Positions 23,952 through 29,553 of a stretch of 64,000 nt of DNA are shown in pieces (positions within the stretch are counted from its first letter, which is position 1; every line of letters begins with the position of its first letter). Below the pieces are notes generated by a model. It ran no database searches. It saw nothing but the letters and a program-made list of their open reading frames with translations, and was not told the origin of the DNA. The DNA comes from Synergistaceae bacterium (GTDB taxonomy: Bacteria > Synergistota > Synergistia > Synergistales > Aminobacteriaceae): positions 1 through 64,000 of the forward strand of contig JAFRAH010000006.1 in assembly GCA_017405525.1 (NCBI GenBank). Reading direction: 5' to 3'. Position numbers and translations under genes: made by a program.

Positions 23952-24426
23952 TTAACCCCGTAAGATTATATTCCTCCGTTCAAGTATCTTCATCAAGGGA
24001 ACGCCAACTACATAGCAGGCTCCAGCCTCACCAAGCCCAACGTAAAGGCACGTCGCCAACAACGGGACATCAAGAAGAACATGCAGCATTGCCCCGATGA
24101 TTATTGCGTTCGAGATTACCGGCCATGATGCAGCAATGTAGATGCTCCGGGATTTTCGGGTCAGTATTGCGGCTATCAGCGTGGCCAATGACCCGAAGAC
24201 CATATCAGTGAGTCCGTAGCCCCCGTAGAAATTCGCGAAGACACAGCCCGCAAACAAGCCCGGTATTGCTTCAGGCATGTAGAACGGAAGAAGTGTCAGA
24301 GCTTCCGAGACCCTGAACTGAACAGGCCCGTATGAGATTGGCGCAAGTGCTATCGTGAGGACTGCATAGAGTGCGGCAATTAACGCTCCCTTTGATGCTT
24401 TCTTTGTGGCGGTGTTGATTGGTCAT
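23952..24426 (-). pseudogene. queT: QueT-family queuosine precursor transporter, start region disrupted
   Basis: The frame ending at 23952 encodes a QueT membrane protein. 'APISYGPVQFRVSEALTLLPFYMPEAIPGLFAGC' is diagnostic, and about five hydrophobic helices follow. QueT imports a precursor of queuosine, used for tRNA wobble modification; tgt is also in this window. The conserved N terminus ('KASKGALIAALYAVLTIALAP') is in a frame that has no ATG, GTG or TTG after the priA stop at 24423. A well-placed start with AAGGAG and ATG at 24426 exists, overlapping the priA TGA, but it lies one frame away. One base must be lost near 24405-24420, or an ATC start be used. Either a frameshift, a non-standard start, or a sequence error. 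Confidence 0.7.
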
Positions 24427-26165
24427 TCGCTCCTTACTGTGATTTTTATCGAGTTCCTGAGTGATAGTTTAGGCTCAAGAATTTTTCGGACGGCATCAAG
24501 CGACTCGGTGTTCACGTAAATGGGCAGCTTGTCATCTCCCGGATCCATCACGAAAATTCCTGCGGCCATGAATGAATCTATCATCTCCTCACGGGCTATT
24601 TTACTCCCAAATTCAAGCTCGGTGATATATCCATAGGGTGGCAGTATAAATTCCCGTCTTGATTTCAGCTCGTCAGGTATGAACTTCCCCCAGCCCTGAG
24701 ACAGAAAAACCGCAAGCCTCATTCCCGACATTCTGGACTGGACGAGAACCTTGCGCCCTGAATTGCTATCACGCCCCCGCCAGTAAGATTCCCAGAGCAT
24801 CATGAAGACGTTATAGCGTGTTGTGTGAGCCTGTCCCCGTAGTTCAGCGTCAAGGTCAAGCCACGCAATAAGACCCGGCTTAACCCTCCCGCAAAGTTCG
24901 AGCCCCCTTCGTGTCGAGAGTATGAGCCCGTGAAGTCCTGAACTTTTGCCCCCGTCGTAAACGTGGACATCATTGCAGTAACGCCCCGCAATCTCAGCAA
25001 GTGCATCAAGCCCCGGCCTCCTGCCACTGAGCAAGCCATAGCCGCAAGACTCGCACTTGTCGGGCATCACCCGGACAGCCCCGCACTTCCTGCAACGCAA
25101 GATACTTCCCTCACTGACTGCCTGCATTGCCGCCCCGCACTTGAGGCACTTCACCGTTCCGCCGCAATTCCCGCAGAAGACCTCTGACGCTCCGCCTGTC
25201 CTGTCGAGTATCCAGATGACGCTATGACTTTGTGCCAGCTCCCTGTAGGTGTGCTTGATGAGTGAGAACGTAAGGGGGATATGTCCTTCCGTGCCGTGAA
25301 CCTGCTCTTTGTGGGAGGCGTGAATGTCAGCAAGTATGATGTTCTTTCGGTCGGGCTTGAGGTGTTCAGTTGGTGATGTCCTGACGTAGGTCTTGAGTGA
25401 TGGGATTCTTCCGGCGGTAATGAACTCGGCCTGAAGGTATGAGGCTCTTTGTCCTGCGAGGCTACGGGCTGAAATGTTTAGGGTGTAGGGCAGAACGTAG
25501 GCAGGGCTTGCTTCGTCCTCGATGATTATGCGCTGTGGACTGAGGGGTGCTGCTATTCCTCCGGGAGGTGCTACTACTATCCTGAATTTCCCGGCGTGAA
25601 CTTCCCTCCATGCCTGCCAGAGTTTAGGGCTGCTGCTTGACGGCCAGAGTAGGGCATCAGCTTTCAGGGTATCAGGGAGCGACATGAAGAACTCTTTAGC
25701 GGCTTCCTTCTGGGGGAACAATATTAGAGTTCGTCCGGGCTTGTTGAGTTCATCGAGAAAAAAATTAACCCGCTCATTGTCCAACGGGTTAAAGAATGTC
25801 CTTGATGTGAATTTTCCCGGTGTCTCTTCACGTTCTGGAGGGGGATTGACCTTTTCGCCCATGTATACAGGACGGGGGATAAGTGCCTTCATTGCCGCAC
25901 CATTCCCGCACATGCACACCCTTCCAGCCCACAAAGAGAGCTCCCATATGTCCGGGGGGATTACTGGAACGTCATCTATTACGCCCTCGACTGCCTTGAC
26001 CTTAACGCTTGGGGGTAAATCCTTCTCCGATTGTCCGAGTACAAACCCTGCATGAAGACTCCTTCCAACCTCAACGATGACACGAACGCCCGGCCTTATG
26101 TTTACGGGGCAGTCATAGGTCAGAGAGTTCAGCGACATTTCAGGGACTGCTACATCAACCAGCAA
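24423..26165 (-). CDS. priA: PriA-like primosomal protein lacking helicase ATP-binding motifs
   Basis: 580 residues, about 150 shorter than typical PriA. The N-terminal 3'-end-binding domain is clear ('LVDVAVPEMSLNSLTYDCPV', 'PGVRVIVEVGR'). All eight zinc cysteines are kept (C331, C334, C340, C343, C358, C361, C371, C374). The C-terminal 'PPYGYITELEFGS' element is normal. Walker A is missing: residues 127-150 pass straight from 'PLDNERVNFF' to 'GRTLILFPQ' with no GxTGSGKT. The DEEH box is replaced by 'IIEDEASPAY' (216-219). Such a protein could bind forks and load replication proteins but not unwind DNA. TTG at 26165 overlaps coaBC by 11 nt; its order after rpoZ-coaBC is conserved in many bacteria. 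Confidence 0.85.
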   Translation of the reverse strand: MLVDVAVPEMSLNSLTYDCPVNIRPGVRVIVEVGRSLHAGFVLGQSEKDLPPSVKVKAVEGVIDDVPVIPPDIWELSLWAGRVCMCGNGAAMKALIPRPVYMGEKVNPPPEREETPGKFTSRTFFNPLDNERVNFFLDELNKPGRTLILFPQKEAAKEFFMSLPDTLKADALLWPSSSSPKLWQAWREVHAGKFRIVVAPPGGIAAPLSPQRIIIEDEASPAYVLPYTLNISARSLAGQRASYLQAEFITAGRIPSLKTYVRTSPTEHLKPDRKNIILADIHASHKEQVHGTEGHIPLTFSLIKHTYRELAQSHSVIWILDRTGGASEVFCGNCGGTVKCLKCGAAMQAVSEGSILRCRKCGAVRVMPDKCESCGYGLLSGRRPGLDALAEIAGRYCNDVHVYDGGKSSGLHGLILSTRRGLELCGRVKPGLIAWLDLDAELRGQAHTTRYNVFMMLWESYWRGRDSNSGRKVLVQSRMSGMRLAVFLSQGWGKFIPDELKSRREFILPPYGYITELEFGSKIAREEMIDSFMAAGIFVMDPGDDKLPIYVNTESLDAVRKILEPKLSLRNSIKITVRSE

Positions 26166-27351
26166 TCAGCCTGCTCCATATCTCGAACGCTATATCTTCC
26201 TTGAGGCCGGAAAATATCTGTTCGGGTTCGTCAGGATTTCGGGGGATGAGCCGTAACGTGTTGGTGTCTGATGCAAAGCCCGTGTTCTTTCCCGTAACGT
26301 CATTGGCGAGTATGTAGTCGAGGTTCTTGCGTTTGAGCTTAGCCCGTGCATTCTCGTTGACGTTGTCGGTCTCTGCCGCAAAACCCACGAGCACCTGCCC
26401 CTCACGTTTGAGCCTCCCGACTTCAGCCGCAATGTCCGGGTTCTGGACGAGCTCAAGGGTGATAACGTCCCTTCCTTCACGCTTGATTTTGCGGGGGGTG
26501 AAGTCCTTTGCCCTGAAGTCCCCTACTGCCGCCGCCTTCACGACATAGTCAGCCCACGAGAGATTTTCCCGGACAGCCGAGAACATCTCCTCAGCCGACT
26601 TAACCCGGACGACATCGAGACCGTAACTGTCAACTTCAACAGGCCCGGCAATGAGCTTCACTTCCGCGCCCCTGTACCATGCTGAACGTGCCATAGAAAC
26701 GCCCATCTTCCCGGTTGAAGGGTTCGAGATATAGCGCACTGGGTCAATGTATTCATGTGTCGGCCCGGCAGTAACCAGCACCCTCCTTCCGGCCATGTCG
26801 TGAACGCACAACGCCCTGAATACCTCGTGAAGTATCTCGTGGGGTTCAGGCATCCTTCCGCGTCCTGAGACACCGCAGGCAAGTGCACCCTCTGACGGCT
26901 GGACTACCCTAACGCCACGTGATGCAAGCGTCTTCATGTTGTCCTGAGTTGCGGGGTTGTCATACATGTCCTCATTCATGGCCGGGAATATCAATACCGG
27001 GCATTTTTGGGGGGCGGCTATGACTGCGGAGGTCAGGAGGTTGTCGGCTATACCGTGTGCAATCTTGGCGAGGGTGTTTGCGGTGCAGGGGGCAATCACG
27101 AGAACATCAGCCCAGTGTGAGAGCTTTATGTGTGGTATCGTACCGTCAAACGAGTCATCATCCCGGACTTTGTGGCCTGAAAGTGTCTCAAGCGTCATGG
27201 GGGCAACGAAATTCTTTGCGCTCCCGGTCATGATGATTTCGCATTCACATTCTGACTTCCCGATGAGACGGACTAATGAGGGAATCTTGTAGGCCGCTAT
27301 TCCCCCGGTGATGCCCAAGAGAATTTTGCGGCCATTCTTCCAGCTATTCAT
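26155..27351 (-). CDS. coaBC: Bifunctional phosphopantothenoylcysteine synthetase/decarboxylase
   Basis: 398 residues from ATG 27351. The CoaC flavoprotein half comes first ('ILLGITGGIAAYKIPSLVRLI', 'SHWADVLVIAPCTANTLAKIAHGIADNLL', 'FPAMNEDMYDNPATQ', active-site Cys in 'GALACGVSGRGRMPEP'). The CoaB synthetase half follows ('VLVTAGPTHEYIDPVRYISNPSTGKMG', 'VKAAAVGDFRA', 'LVGFAAET', 'ILANDV'). It makes 4'-phosphopantetheine from phosphopantothenate and cysteine, for coenzyme A. A longer frame upstream of 27351 is the rpoZ gene read out of frame, so I start at the ATG that overlaps the rpoZ stop by 8 nt. Operon order is rpoZ-coaBC-priA-queT. Confidence 0.95.
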   Translation of the reverse strand: MNSWKNGRKILLGITGGIAAYKIPSLVRLIGKSECECEIIMTGSAKNFVAPMTLETLSGHKVRDDDSFDGTIPHIKLSHWADVLVIAPCTANTLAKIAHGIADNLLTSAVIAAPQKCPVLIFPAMNEDMYDNPATQDNMKTLASRGVRVVQPSEGALACGVSGRGRMPEPHEILHEVFRALCVHDMAGRRVLVTAGPTHEYIDPVRYISNPSTGKMGVSMARSAWYRGAEVKLIAGPVEVDSYGLDVVRVKSAEEMFSAVRENLSWADYVVKAAAVGDFRAKDFTPRKIKREGRDVITLELVQNPDIAAEVGRLKREGQVLVGFAAETDNVNENARAKLKRKNLDYILANDVTGKNTGFASDTNTLRLIPRNPDEPEQIFSGLKEDIAFEIWSRLIAG

Positions 27352-27577
27352 CTGAGAGGCTGAGGGCTTCCTGCTGGTGTTCCTTGTTGATGGGGCTCTT
27401 CCCCTCCTCAATCTCAAGGAGTACGTTCGAGATAAAGCGTTCATTTGCGGGGGAAGTCCTTTCGTTTGCGGCCTCCTCACTCTCACGCCTAGCCTCTGCT
27501 GCAACTTTGGCGGTAATCTCGTATTTGTTGTCAGTCCCGCACTTCTCAGCGAGCCACTCCAAATCATAGAACTTCAT
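27344..27577 (-). CDS. rpoZ: RNA polymerase omega subunit
   Basis: A 77-residue omega protein: 'MKFYDLEWLAEKCGTDNKYEITAKVAAEARR' contains the conserved N-terminal motif, in which a helix and 'NKYEL' contact beta-prime. Omega helps beta-prime folding and polymerase assembly. The gene has an AAGGAGG site, ends in TAG, and is directly followed by coaBC with an 8-nt overlap. gmk, the usual upstream gene, is absent; a TerD gene sits there instead, which suggests a local rearrangement. Confidence 0.85.
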   Translation of the reverse strand: MKFYDLEWLAEKCGTDNKYEITAKVAAEARRESEEAANERTSPANERFISNVLLEIEEGKSPINKEHQQEALSLSDE

Positions 27578-27626: not shown

Positions 27627-28241
27627 CTACATGAACCGCCGGGCAAGCTCCGAAATGTTGTTGTCCTTTGTGGCCTGTCCTGTTGCGTTGAACCTCCACT
27701 GACCGTTTCGCAGGTATATCTCCCCGAATATCATTGCGGTCATTCCGTCATAGTTCTCCGAGAGATTGTAGCGGCATAATTCTTGATGTGTATCGTTGTC
27801 GCATATCCTGATGAAGGCGTTGCGTATCATCCCGAAGTGCTGGCCTCGTTCTTTGGCCTTGTAGATGTTCACGGTGAATATTACCCTGTCATAGCCCGCT
27901 GGCAAGTCCTCAAGGTCAACGTATATCTGTTCGTCGTCGCCTTCACCCTCGCCCGTAAGGTTATCGCCCATGTGCCTGACAGCCCCGGAGGAATGCTCAA
28001 GGTTGCCGAAATATATTATGTCGTCATTGCCGGTGATTTTTCCGTTCATGCATAGGAACGCCGAAGCATCACAGTCAATGTTATGTGTCTTCTTGCCGCC
28101 GAAAATTGCTCCGAGTATTCCGCCATTGTTCCCGGATTTTTCCGCCTCGTCCCAGCCAAGCCCTACCATGACGTGCCTTAGTGCTGAACCGTCAGCCTTT
28201 CGGAGGTCAACTTTCTGCCCCTTCTGTAGATTTACTGCCAT
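27627..28241 (-). CDS. TerD-family calcium-binding stress protein
   Basis: 204 residues of TerD/TerE type. 'LQKGQKVDLRK' starts the domain, 'VMVGLGWDEA' follows, then an insertion of about 15 residues ('GNNGGILGAIFGGKKTH'). The conserved core is 'DCDASAFLC', '[30 protein letters not shown]' and 'RNAFIRICD'. Its acidic loop binds calcium in characterised TerD proteins. TerD proteins are linked to tellurite, phage and envelope stress responses, but their mechanism is unclear. Last gene of a TerD-AIM24-TerD set on the minus strand. The insertion with glycine-rich sequence distinguishes it from its paralogue two genes upstream. Confidence 0.9.
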   Translation of the reverse strand: MAVNLQKGQKVDLRKADGSALRHVMVGLGWDEAEKSGNNGGILGAIFGGKKTHNIDCDASAFLCMNGKITGNDDIIYFGNLEHSSGAVRHMGDNLTGEGEGDDEQIYVDLEDLPAGYDRVIFTVNIYKAKERGQHFGMIRNAFIRICDNDTHQELCRYNLSENYDGMTAMIFGEIYLRNGQWRFNATGQATKDNNISELARRFM

Positions 28242-28256
28242 TGTGATTAACCCTCC

Positions 28257-28943
28257 CTATTTGATCGCAGTCTTGAGGAGTCCCTTCATCCATACGGAGA
28301 ATGATTCGGGTTTCCTCGTCTGTATCAGCACAGTACCGGGCCCCCTGAACCTGCACACAAGACCCTCACCGCTGGCAAAACTCGAAAGCCACCCGGAAGA
28401 TGCCTTCTCGATCGTGTAGTCCATGTAGTCCGGCCATGCCACAAGATGACCGTTGTCTATGATGACCTCTTCGCCCTCGTCAATCTTGAGCTCATGTATT
28501 GCCCCAAAGCTGGAGATGAATACTATTCCTTTGCCCTGAAGTTTAAGGAGGAAGAAGCCCTTTCGTGAGAATAGACCCTGCGACAAATTCTGCATGGACG
28601 CGTCAATCTCTATGGTCTCCTCAGCCGCAAGGAAGCCGTTTTTCTGCACGACAAGACCGCATGAGCCGTCAAGGGCAACATCACTTATCCCGCCCAATGC
28701 AGAATGAGCAAGAAGTACACTCCCTGCCCCACGTGCCGCAGTTATACGCTGTAGGAAGAAGCTCTCACCTGCAAGGCTGCGTTTCAGCCCTCCCCAGATT
28801 CCGCCGTCATCCATCGAGGCCGAAACGTCAAGCGTCCCTGACATTGCGACCATAGCGTCAGACTCGGCCTTCAGTGATTCGCCGGGCATCATGTCGCACT
28901 TGACGATGGAGAACGCATCCTGGTGCATGATCTCGTACTTCAT
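28257..28943 (-). CDS. AIM24/TIGR00266-family protein
   Basis: 228 residues forming the beta-rich AIM24 fold. 'FSIVKCDMMPGESLKAESDAMVAMSGTLDVSAS', 'GGLKRSLAGESFFLQRITA', 'GLVVQKNGFLAAEETIEID', 'GEEVIIDNGHLVAWPDYMDYTIEKAS' and 'FRGPGTVLIQTRKP' are all family hallmarks. The protein is a pseudo-symmetric beta barrel of unknown biochemical role. In bacteria it is very often encoded beside TerD, as here, where it lies between two TerD genes with gaps of 15 and 34 bases. A shared stress-associated complex is the usual suggestion. Confidence 0.9.
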   Translation of the reverse strand: MKYEIMHQDAFSIVKCDMMPGESLKAESDAMVAMSGTLDVSASMDDGGIWGGLKRSLAGESFFLQRITAARGAGSVLLAHSALGGISDVALDGSCGLVVQKNGFLAAEETIEIDASMQNLSQGLFSRKGFFLLKLQGKGIVFISSFGAIHELKIDEGEEVIIDNGHLVAWPDYMDYTIEKASSGWLSSFASGEGLVCRFRGPGTVLIQTRKPESFSVWMKGLLKTAIK

Positions 28944-28977
28944 GGCATTTCAGCAGGAGAAGTAATACCTGAAAGCC

Positions 28978-29553
28978 TCAGACATTCACGCCGAAGTTCT
29001 GGCACAACGCACGAAGTCCCCCCTTGAAGCCTGAGCCCACAGCGTTGAACTTCCACTCTGAACCGCTCCTGTAGAGTTCCCCGGCAATTACGGCCGTCTC
29101 AACGGAGAAGTCCTCGCCCAAGTCGTAGCGTATAAGCTCTTTGCCGTTCGACTCGTCCATGATTCGGATGTAGGCATTCGAGACCTGCCCGAAATTCTGG
29201 CGGCGTTCTTCAGCCTCGTGTATCGTTACGGTGAAGGCTATCTTGTCGACACTCGAGGGAACCTTGCTCAGGTCAACGCGTATCTGCTCGTCATCCCCCT
29301 CACCGATTCCTGTCCTGTTGTCGCCCATGTGCTGGATTGCTCCTGATGAGTGCTTGAGGTTGTTGTAGAACAAAAAATCAGAGTCGCTTGATACTTTTCC
29401 GTTAGGGGCAAGAACGAAAGCGGCAGTATCGAGGTCAAATGCTGCTTGGCCGTCATACTTATTCACGTCCCAGCCAAGTCCTACTAGTACCTTTGAGAGG
29501 CCGGGATTGTTCTTAGTGAGGTCTACCTTCTGGCCTTTGAACAAACTTATCAT
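28978..29553 (-). CDS. TerD-family calcium-binding stress protein
   Basis: 191 residues, first gene of the TerD-AIM24-TerD set. It has the canonical TerD core without the insertion of its paralogue: '[45 protein letters not shown]', '[34 protein letters not shown]', '[21 protein letters not shown]', '[19 protein letters not shown]'. The aspartates in 'DLDTAAF' and 'GEGDDEQI' are the calcium sites known in the family. The two TerD copies share the core pattern, so they arose by duplication but diverged well. Confidence 0.92.

Follow-up and report, generated by a model that had tools for sequence, protein, structure and literature searches.

The window analysed here, a 64,000-nucleotide stretch of the genome of a Synergistaceae bacterium (contig JAFRAH010000006.1, assembly GCA_017405525.1), carries a priA gene downstream of coaBC and an rpoZ-like ORF (Table 1). 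The TTG start codon of priA shares 11 bases with the end of coaBC, and a GGAG lies 8 bases upstream of it. The mechanically called coaBC ORF (26155-27567) is 72 codons too long and reaches into the rpoZ-like ORF; the true start is probably the ATG at 27351, which overlaps the end of that ORF. At 27627-29553, two ORFs that we take to encode TerD-family stress protein-like products flank a third ORF (28257-28943).

Table 1. Features of the priA locus, in window coordinates; residue numbers are those of the predicted PriA protein.
Feature	Position	Strand	Remarks
QueT transporter ORF	23952-24278		downstream of priA; PF06177, 97.9 bits
priA, predicted pseudohelicase gene	24423..26165	(-)	TTG start at 26165, stop ending 24423, 580 aa
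C-terminal domain region, ~residues 476-580	24426..24740	(-)	fold match to PriA reaches residue 580
Cysteine-rich region, residues 331-374	25044..25175	(-)	C331 C334 C340 C343 C358 C361 C371 C374
Motif II position, residues 216-219	25509..25520	(-)	EDEA for DEEH, third letter (E218) kept
Motif I remnant, residues 126-132	25770..25790	(-)	NPLDNER; R132 aligns with E. coli K230
3'-binding domain (3'BD), residues 5-97	25875..26153	(-)	PF17764, E 1.1e-13
coaBC, 398 aa	26155..27351	(-)	match to TIGR00521 (425.8 bits) begins at residue 78 of the long ORF
rpoZ-like ORF, 77 aa	27344..27577	(-)	weak Rpb6/omega match, E 0.13, under cut-off

The initial annotation saw in a conserved rpoZ-coaBC-priA context a pointer to replication restart by loading only. 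The coaBC-priA part of this arrangement is real: coaBC lies directly upstream of priA in 115 of the 131 loci whose upstream sequence exceeds 1.3 kb (some genomes being in both locus sets), and rpoZ-like ORFs accompany the two genes in 86 of 143 priA-bearing entries. It adds little to the loading-only reading, however, because Bacillus and Paenibacillus share the coaBC-priA order and have a canonical PriA; rpoZ stands with priA in Pusillibacter. We take the gene context as a mark of orthology, not of novelty. A QueT-like ORF also follows priA in locus L149 (by inspection). In a Fretibacterium sp. MAG (L149:5273-5587; G010:C8:74234-74572), a near-identical tandem copy of the last ~100 priA codons lies directly downstream of the gene, in a frame that differs from that of priA.

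The 580-residue protein scored poorly against family models of PriA. The best NCBIfam PriA model gave 114 bits and all were far below their curated cut-offs; TIGR00595 (cut-off 230.35) reached 88 bits with the protein and 74.5 bits in the genome search. The 3'BD model of Pfam matched at 51.2 bits against a cut-off of 22.7, and the protein matched solved PriA chains by sequence (best E 1e-17). An AlphaFold model, built from an alignment of 45 sequences (the window protein, 42 from Synergistota and 2 from Actinomycetota), had a pLDDT of 89 and a pTM of 0.86. Its five best structural matches were all PriA entries (Z 24.2-27.6 over 489-552 residues). The top match was 6dcr, a construct of E. coli PriA from which the winged helix (WH) has been removed (Z 27.6), followed by 8fak (Z 25.1), 4nl4 (Z 24.6) and others (Z 24.5 and 24.2), and the next non-PriA chain was Mfd (Z 14.9). 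By its 3'BD, its sequence matches and the predicted structure, the ORF is a PriA homologue with the overall PriA fold. This includes the C-terminal domain, rightly listed as kept in the initial annotation, which is seen in the predicted fold even though the Pfam PriA_C model gave no detection in the window protein.

Overall fold, 3'BD and eight zinc cysteines are shared with the PriA of E. coli and Klebsiella; the helicase motifs and the WH, which E. coli PriA has, are not. Compared with E. coli PriA as given in the genome record of that species, window PriA lacks GxTGSGKT, DEEH, GSATP and QVAGRAGR (motifs I, II, III and VI). Around motif I, the model shows a strand (residues 120-125), a three-residue turn (N126-P127-L128) and a helix starting at residue 129. 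The claim that motif I is skipped altogether therefore needs correcting: the glycine-rich loop is reduced to the turn, but the flanking strand and helix remain. As modelled, the phosphate-binding loop itself appears to be gone. The EDEA reading of motif II was borne out, as was the retention of the cysteines (8/8), which are invariant in our alignment A3. The RecA-like lobes are still folded in the model, and the PriA site may bind nucleotide without hydrolysing it.

The N-terminal part, also described at the outset as kept, is kept only as far as the 3'BD; the WH with its linker is gone, with 10 residues in window PriA compared to 94 in E. coli. The stretch from the 3'BD to the helicase lobe has 10-25 residues in 24/24 Synergistota rows, 38-55 in 6/6 Actinomycetota rows and 78-176 in 9/9 canonical rows. 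The Pfam WH model PF21213 finds E. coli PriA and has no match in window PriA, but it also misses the canonical PriA of B. velezensis, so our case for WH loss draws on the length of this stretch and on the structural model. Divergence in the window genus extends outside the helicase core. In a 10-row alignment (A2), window PriA reads VPEMSLN near the N terminus where most others read VPGPWWN, and it lacks a short C-terminal stretch with GFP. Judged from these sequence changes, PriA functions beyond the ATPase may be weakened in this genus.

How widespread is the loss of the motor? Among 61 genomes (the window genome, 36 of its genus and 24 of its order) PriA was found in 59. Leaving out G012 (split over two contigs) and G018 (a 75-residue match in a 93-residue frame) and using one of two PriA pieces for G001 gave 57 sequences, to which we added 20 from a search of 185 genomes of the phylum, among them those of each of the five genomes that lie outside the order. 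Motifs I, II, III and VI were absent from all 77. Arg stood at the Walker Lys position in 76/76 sequences covering it, the third letter of motif II was Glu in 76 and Asp in one, and each of the eight cysteines was conserved in 77/77. The motif loss is thus not a chance local event, because it is common to every Synergistota PriA read. A scan of named genomes gave 73 loci, 66 from Synergistota (Fretibacterium, Acetomicrobium, Pyramidobacter, Synergistes, Thermovirga and unnamed MAGs, overlapping partly with the 77) and 7 from Actinomycetota. The four motifs were again absent from 66/66 Synergistota loci, three of which do not cover motif I and two of which do not cover motif VI; the Lys position was Arg in 62, a gap in three and Gln with an adjoining Arg in one.

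We also looked for an intact motif I in the DNA. A pattern for canonical motif I alone was too loose, matching 173/185 genomes: of 30 matches inspected, 27 were UvrB-like (by eye, against the confirmed UvrB of the window genome) and three belonged to another ATPase (GMTGSGKTGL), and the sole match in the window genome lies in UvrB. A strict pattern, which required the following V/I/M-Y, found 8/9 canonical PriA control loci (Parabacteroides was missed) and 0/185 Synergistota genomes. An intact Walker A is thus absent from relatives both by reading (0/77) and by this pattern (0/185), and the helicase-dead PriA that the initial annotation placed in this lineage is real but wider, occurring throughout the sampled Synergistota.

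The outermost Synergistota (f11 and f12) were considered as possible holders of an intermediate with motif I, but all five genomes lack GxTGSGKT and DEEH. Four of these five are the only ones among the 185 to pass the TIGR00595 cut-off, and the motifs are missing there too. Scores fell from 351 bits in f12 and 228-244 bits in four f11 genomes to 102-185 bits for members of the order (among the matches listed) and 74.5 bits in the window genome, a gradient consistent with an old loss after which the motor decayed. The nearest relative of window PriA is 64% identical. In the closest pairs of relatives dN/dS was 0.07-0.24, with several dS values above 1 and the window gene in no pair.

In an unrooted tree of 39 rows, many of odd composition and one with a long end branch, the Synergistota PriAs form one side of a branch supported at 91/89 and present in 96% of 200 bootstrap trees. 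Actinomycetota PriAs form a separate clade (100/100). The branch joining these two groups against canonical PriA has support of 66/95, at which common ancestry with the actinobacterial pseudohelicases is neither shown nor rejected. Synergistota PriA descends from a PriA helicase whose catalytic motifs were lost; parsimony favours a single loss of the motor at the base of the phylum, on a branch (91/89) that is not fully supported.

Actinomycetota PriAs resemble those of Synergistota in several ways, in a sample that is biased because the scan patterns favour non-DEEH sequences. Motifs I, II, III and VI are absent in the 6/6 read, the WH region is shortened (38-55 residues in each), and DDEAN-PAY at motif II in four Nitriliruptoria PriAs resembles many Synergistota. 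They differ at the K230 position, which is Arg in only one of six (W in two, P in two, G in one). The five Synergistota PriAs scanned also fit general PriA models better than PRK14873, the NCBIfam models that we take to describe the actinobacterial type. UniProt carries caution notes on actinobacterial PriA. That it is "smaller and very divergent" was noted in 2005, in the part of the paper available (PMC1193525).

Pseudohelicase PriA is already known as a kind from Deinococcus-Thermus (PMC4504706, as far as the text is available). The PriA of D. radiodurans, like that of Synergistota, has Arg for the Walker A Lys and a poor motif II. In the accessible part of the same report its ATPase was not measurable and its unwinding activity was negligible, but it binds ssDNA, forks and DnaB (PMC4504706). 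By analogy, fork binding without ATPase would be expected for Synergistota. The available description has Deinococcus-Thermus PriAs matching motifs I and II poorly (PMC4504706); Synergistota go beyond that description, with the P-loop, motif III, motif VI and WH all gone. The matches listed from the plasmid collection included no Deinococcus or Thermus PriA.

Which other restart components are present? In the window genome (2.17 Mb, 99.4% complete) no second canonical PriA was found: the three other TIGR00595 matches are Mfd (806 bits), UvrB (988 bits) and RecG (824 bits), and the canonical motif-I pattern matches nothing. The genome has one DnaB over its cut-off and a weak DciA (25.6 bits, cut-off 24). 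No DnaC/DnaI-type protein exceeded its cut-off, with 13 weak matches to PF01695 (DnaC/IstB). There are three UvrD-family matches and no RecQ over its cut-off. At G000:C40:32259-34136, a 1413-residue frame may be a fusion of RecQ and UvrD: its UvrD-type helicase domain comes after a stretch that resembles RecQ but scores below the RecQ cut-off. Across the phylum, DciA was found in 164/185 genomes (150 over the cut-off) and not found in 21, seven of which are among the 115 of good quality. DciA also matched in 7 of 14 controls: Thermus and Deinobacterium, as in Synergistota, and Corynebacterium, Caulobacter, Synechococcus, Bacteroides and Thermotoga. Shinella, Acaryochloris and Parabacteroides, relatives of three of the DciA-positive controls outside Thermus, Deinobacterium and Corynebacterium, have a canonical PriA, so a genome with DciA need not have a dead PriA.

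The data above lead us to propose, with a probability of about 85%, that Synergistota PriA is a motor-less pseudohelicase that most likely had lost its activity before the sampled Synergistota diverged, has been kept under purifying selection since then and would serve loading at forks without unwinding them. Could the missing motifs be a local deletion, a pseudogene or an assembly error? The window genome is a draft in 43 contigs, but the same state in every relative read refutes this explanation, the frame is open, and dN/dS is well below 1 in relatives (pairs without the window gene); we give it practically no credence. It is also highly improbable that the invariant Arg and E218 stand in for the Walker residues and that ATP is still hydrolysed at such a non-canonical site. 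The conservation of R132 (76/76) and of an acidic third letter in motif II would suit such a site, but the phosphate-binding loop is cut to a three-residue turn, motif VI is lost, and the K230R exchange alone abolishes the ATPase of E. coli PriA (PMC4504706, available part).

A third alternative, which we regard as unlikely, is that PriA has left replication restart for another role, such as that of a structural protein binding forks or ssDNA, with restart carried out by DciA alone or by another helicase. The strong divergence of the protein (TIGR00595 scores from 351 bits in f12 down to 74.5 bits for the window genome) is consistent with this, as is the presence of other helicases (three UvrD-family proteins, RecG and Mfd). 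The protein keeps its 3'BD, all eight cysteines and the fold of PriA, though, the residue pattern is consistent across the phylum, and the Deinococcus pseudohelicase still binds DnaB (PMC4504706, available part). A broader proposal concerns the helicase-dead PriAs of Synergistota, Actinomycetota and perhaps Deinococcota together: a single early loss might lie behind them, or losses that recurred only in lineages with DciA as DnaB loader, where loading by DciA would make unwinding by PriA unnecessary. We hold this tentatively, at rather less than even odds and on the doubtful side. If true, loading-only PriA would be an ancient and stable alternative primosome.

Returning to a motor-less PriA that loads, the likely role of PriA in the restart of these bacteria is that of a loading platform bound to the fork and not that of a DNA-unwinding enzyme. 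PriA would recognise abandoned forks and D-loops through its 3'BD, zinc region and C-terminal domain, the 3'BD reading the nascent leading 3' end. Fork-bound PriA would then recruit DnaB, and DciA would probably act as the loader or as a partner in loading; the authors of one study suggest, in the part available, a possible joint action of DciA and PriA at forks (PMC9825169). PriA itself is predicted neither to hydrolyse ATP nor to strip the lagging strand. The single-stranded lagging template would be exposed by another helicase, or forks that need this would not be used. The known role of the WH is to direct the helicase to the lagging strand, and its deletion loses lagging-strand selectivity (available part of PMC8323898); the WH would be dispensable for this reason. 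That motor and WH were both lost makes sense, because the WH serves the motor. Precedents come from E. coli. According to the available portions of two papers, PriA K230R loses ATPase and helicase activity and ATPase-dead priA strains are viable (PMC4504706), and PriA-PriB restart in vivo does not need PriA's ATPase and helicase (PMC10175261).

Among the matches listed in open-licence PMC (titles and abstract openings), none dealt with PriA in Synergistota, and the available parts of two reviews (PMC3290774, PMC13220808) hold nothing on it. One listed paper, on Lake Erie ice, contains both PriA and Synergistota (PMC11008222). The string "pria" in the available parts of Synergistota genome papers referred only to the PRIAM database.

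Accounts of restart usually include the helicase of PriA, although E. coli mutants without the ATPase are viable. A phylum whose PriA has long lacked both motor and WH would be a natural experiment on this point. It suggests that the 3'BD, the zinc region and the fold are the indispensable parts of PriA, and it predicts a restart route without lagging-strand remodelling through PriA. It also raises the question of whether DciA-type loading makes the PriA motor dispensable. For Synergistota, the annotation "replication restart helicase PriA" would mislead as to activity.
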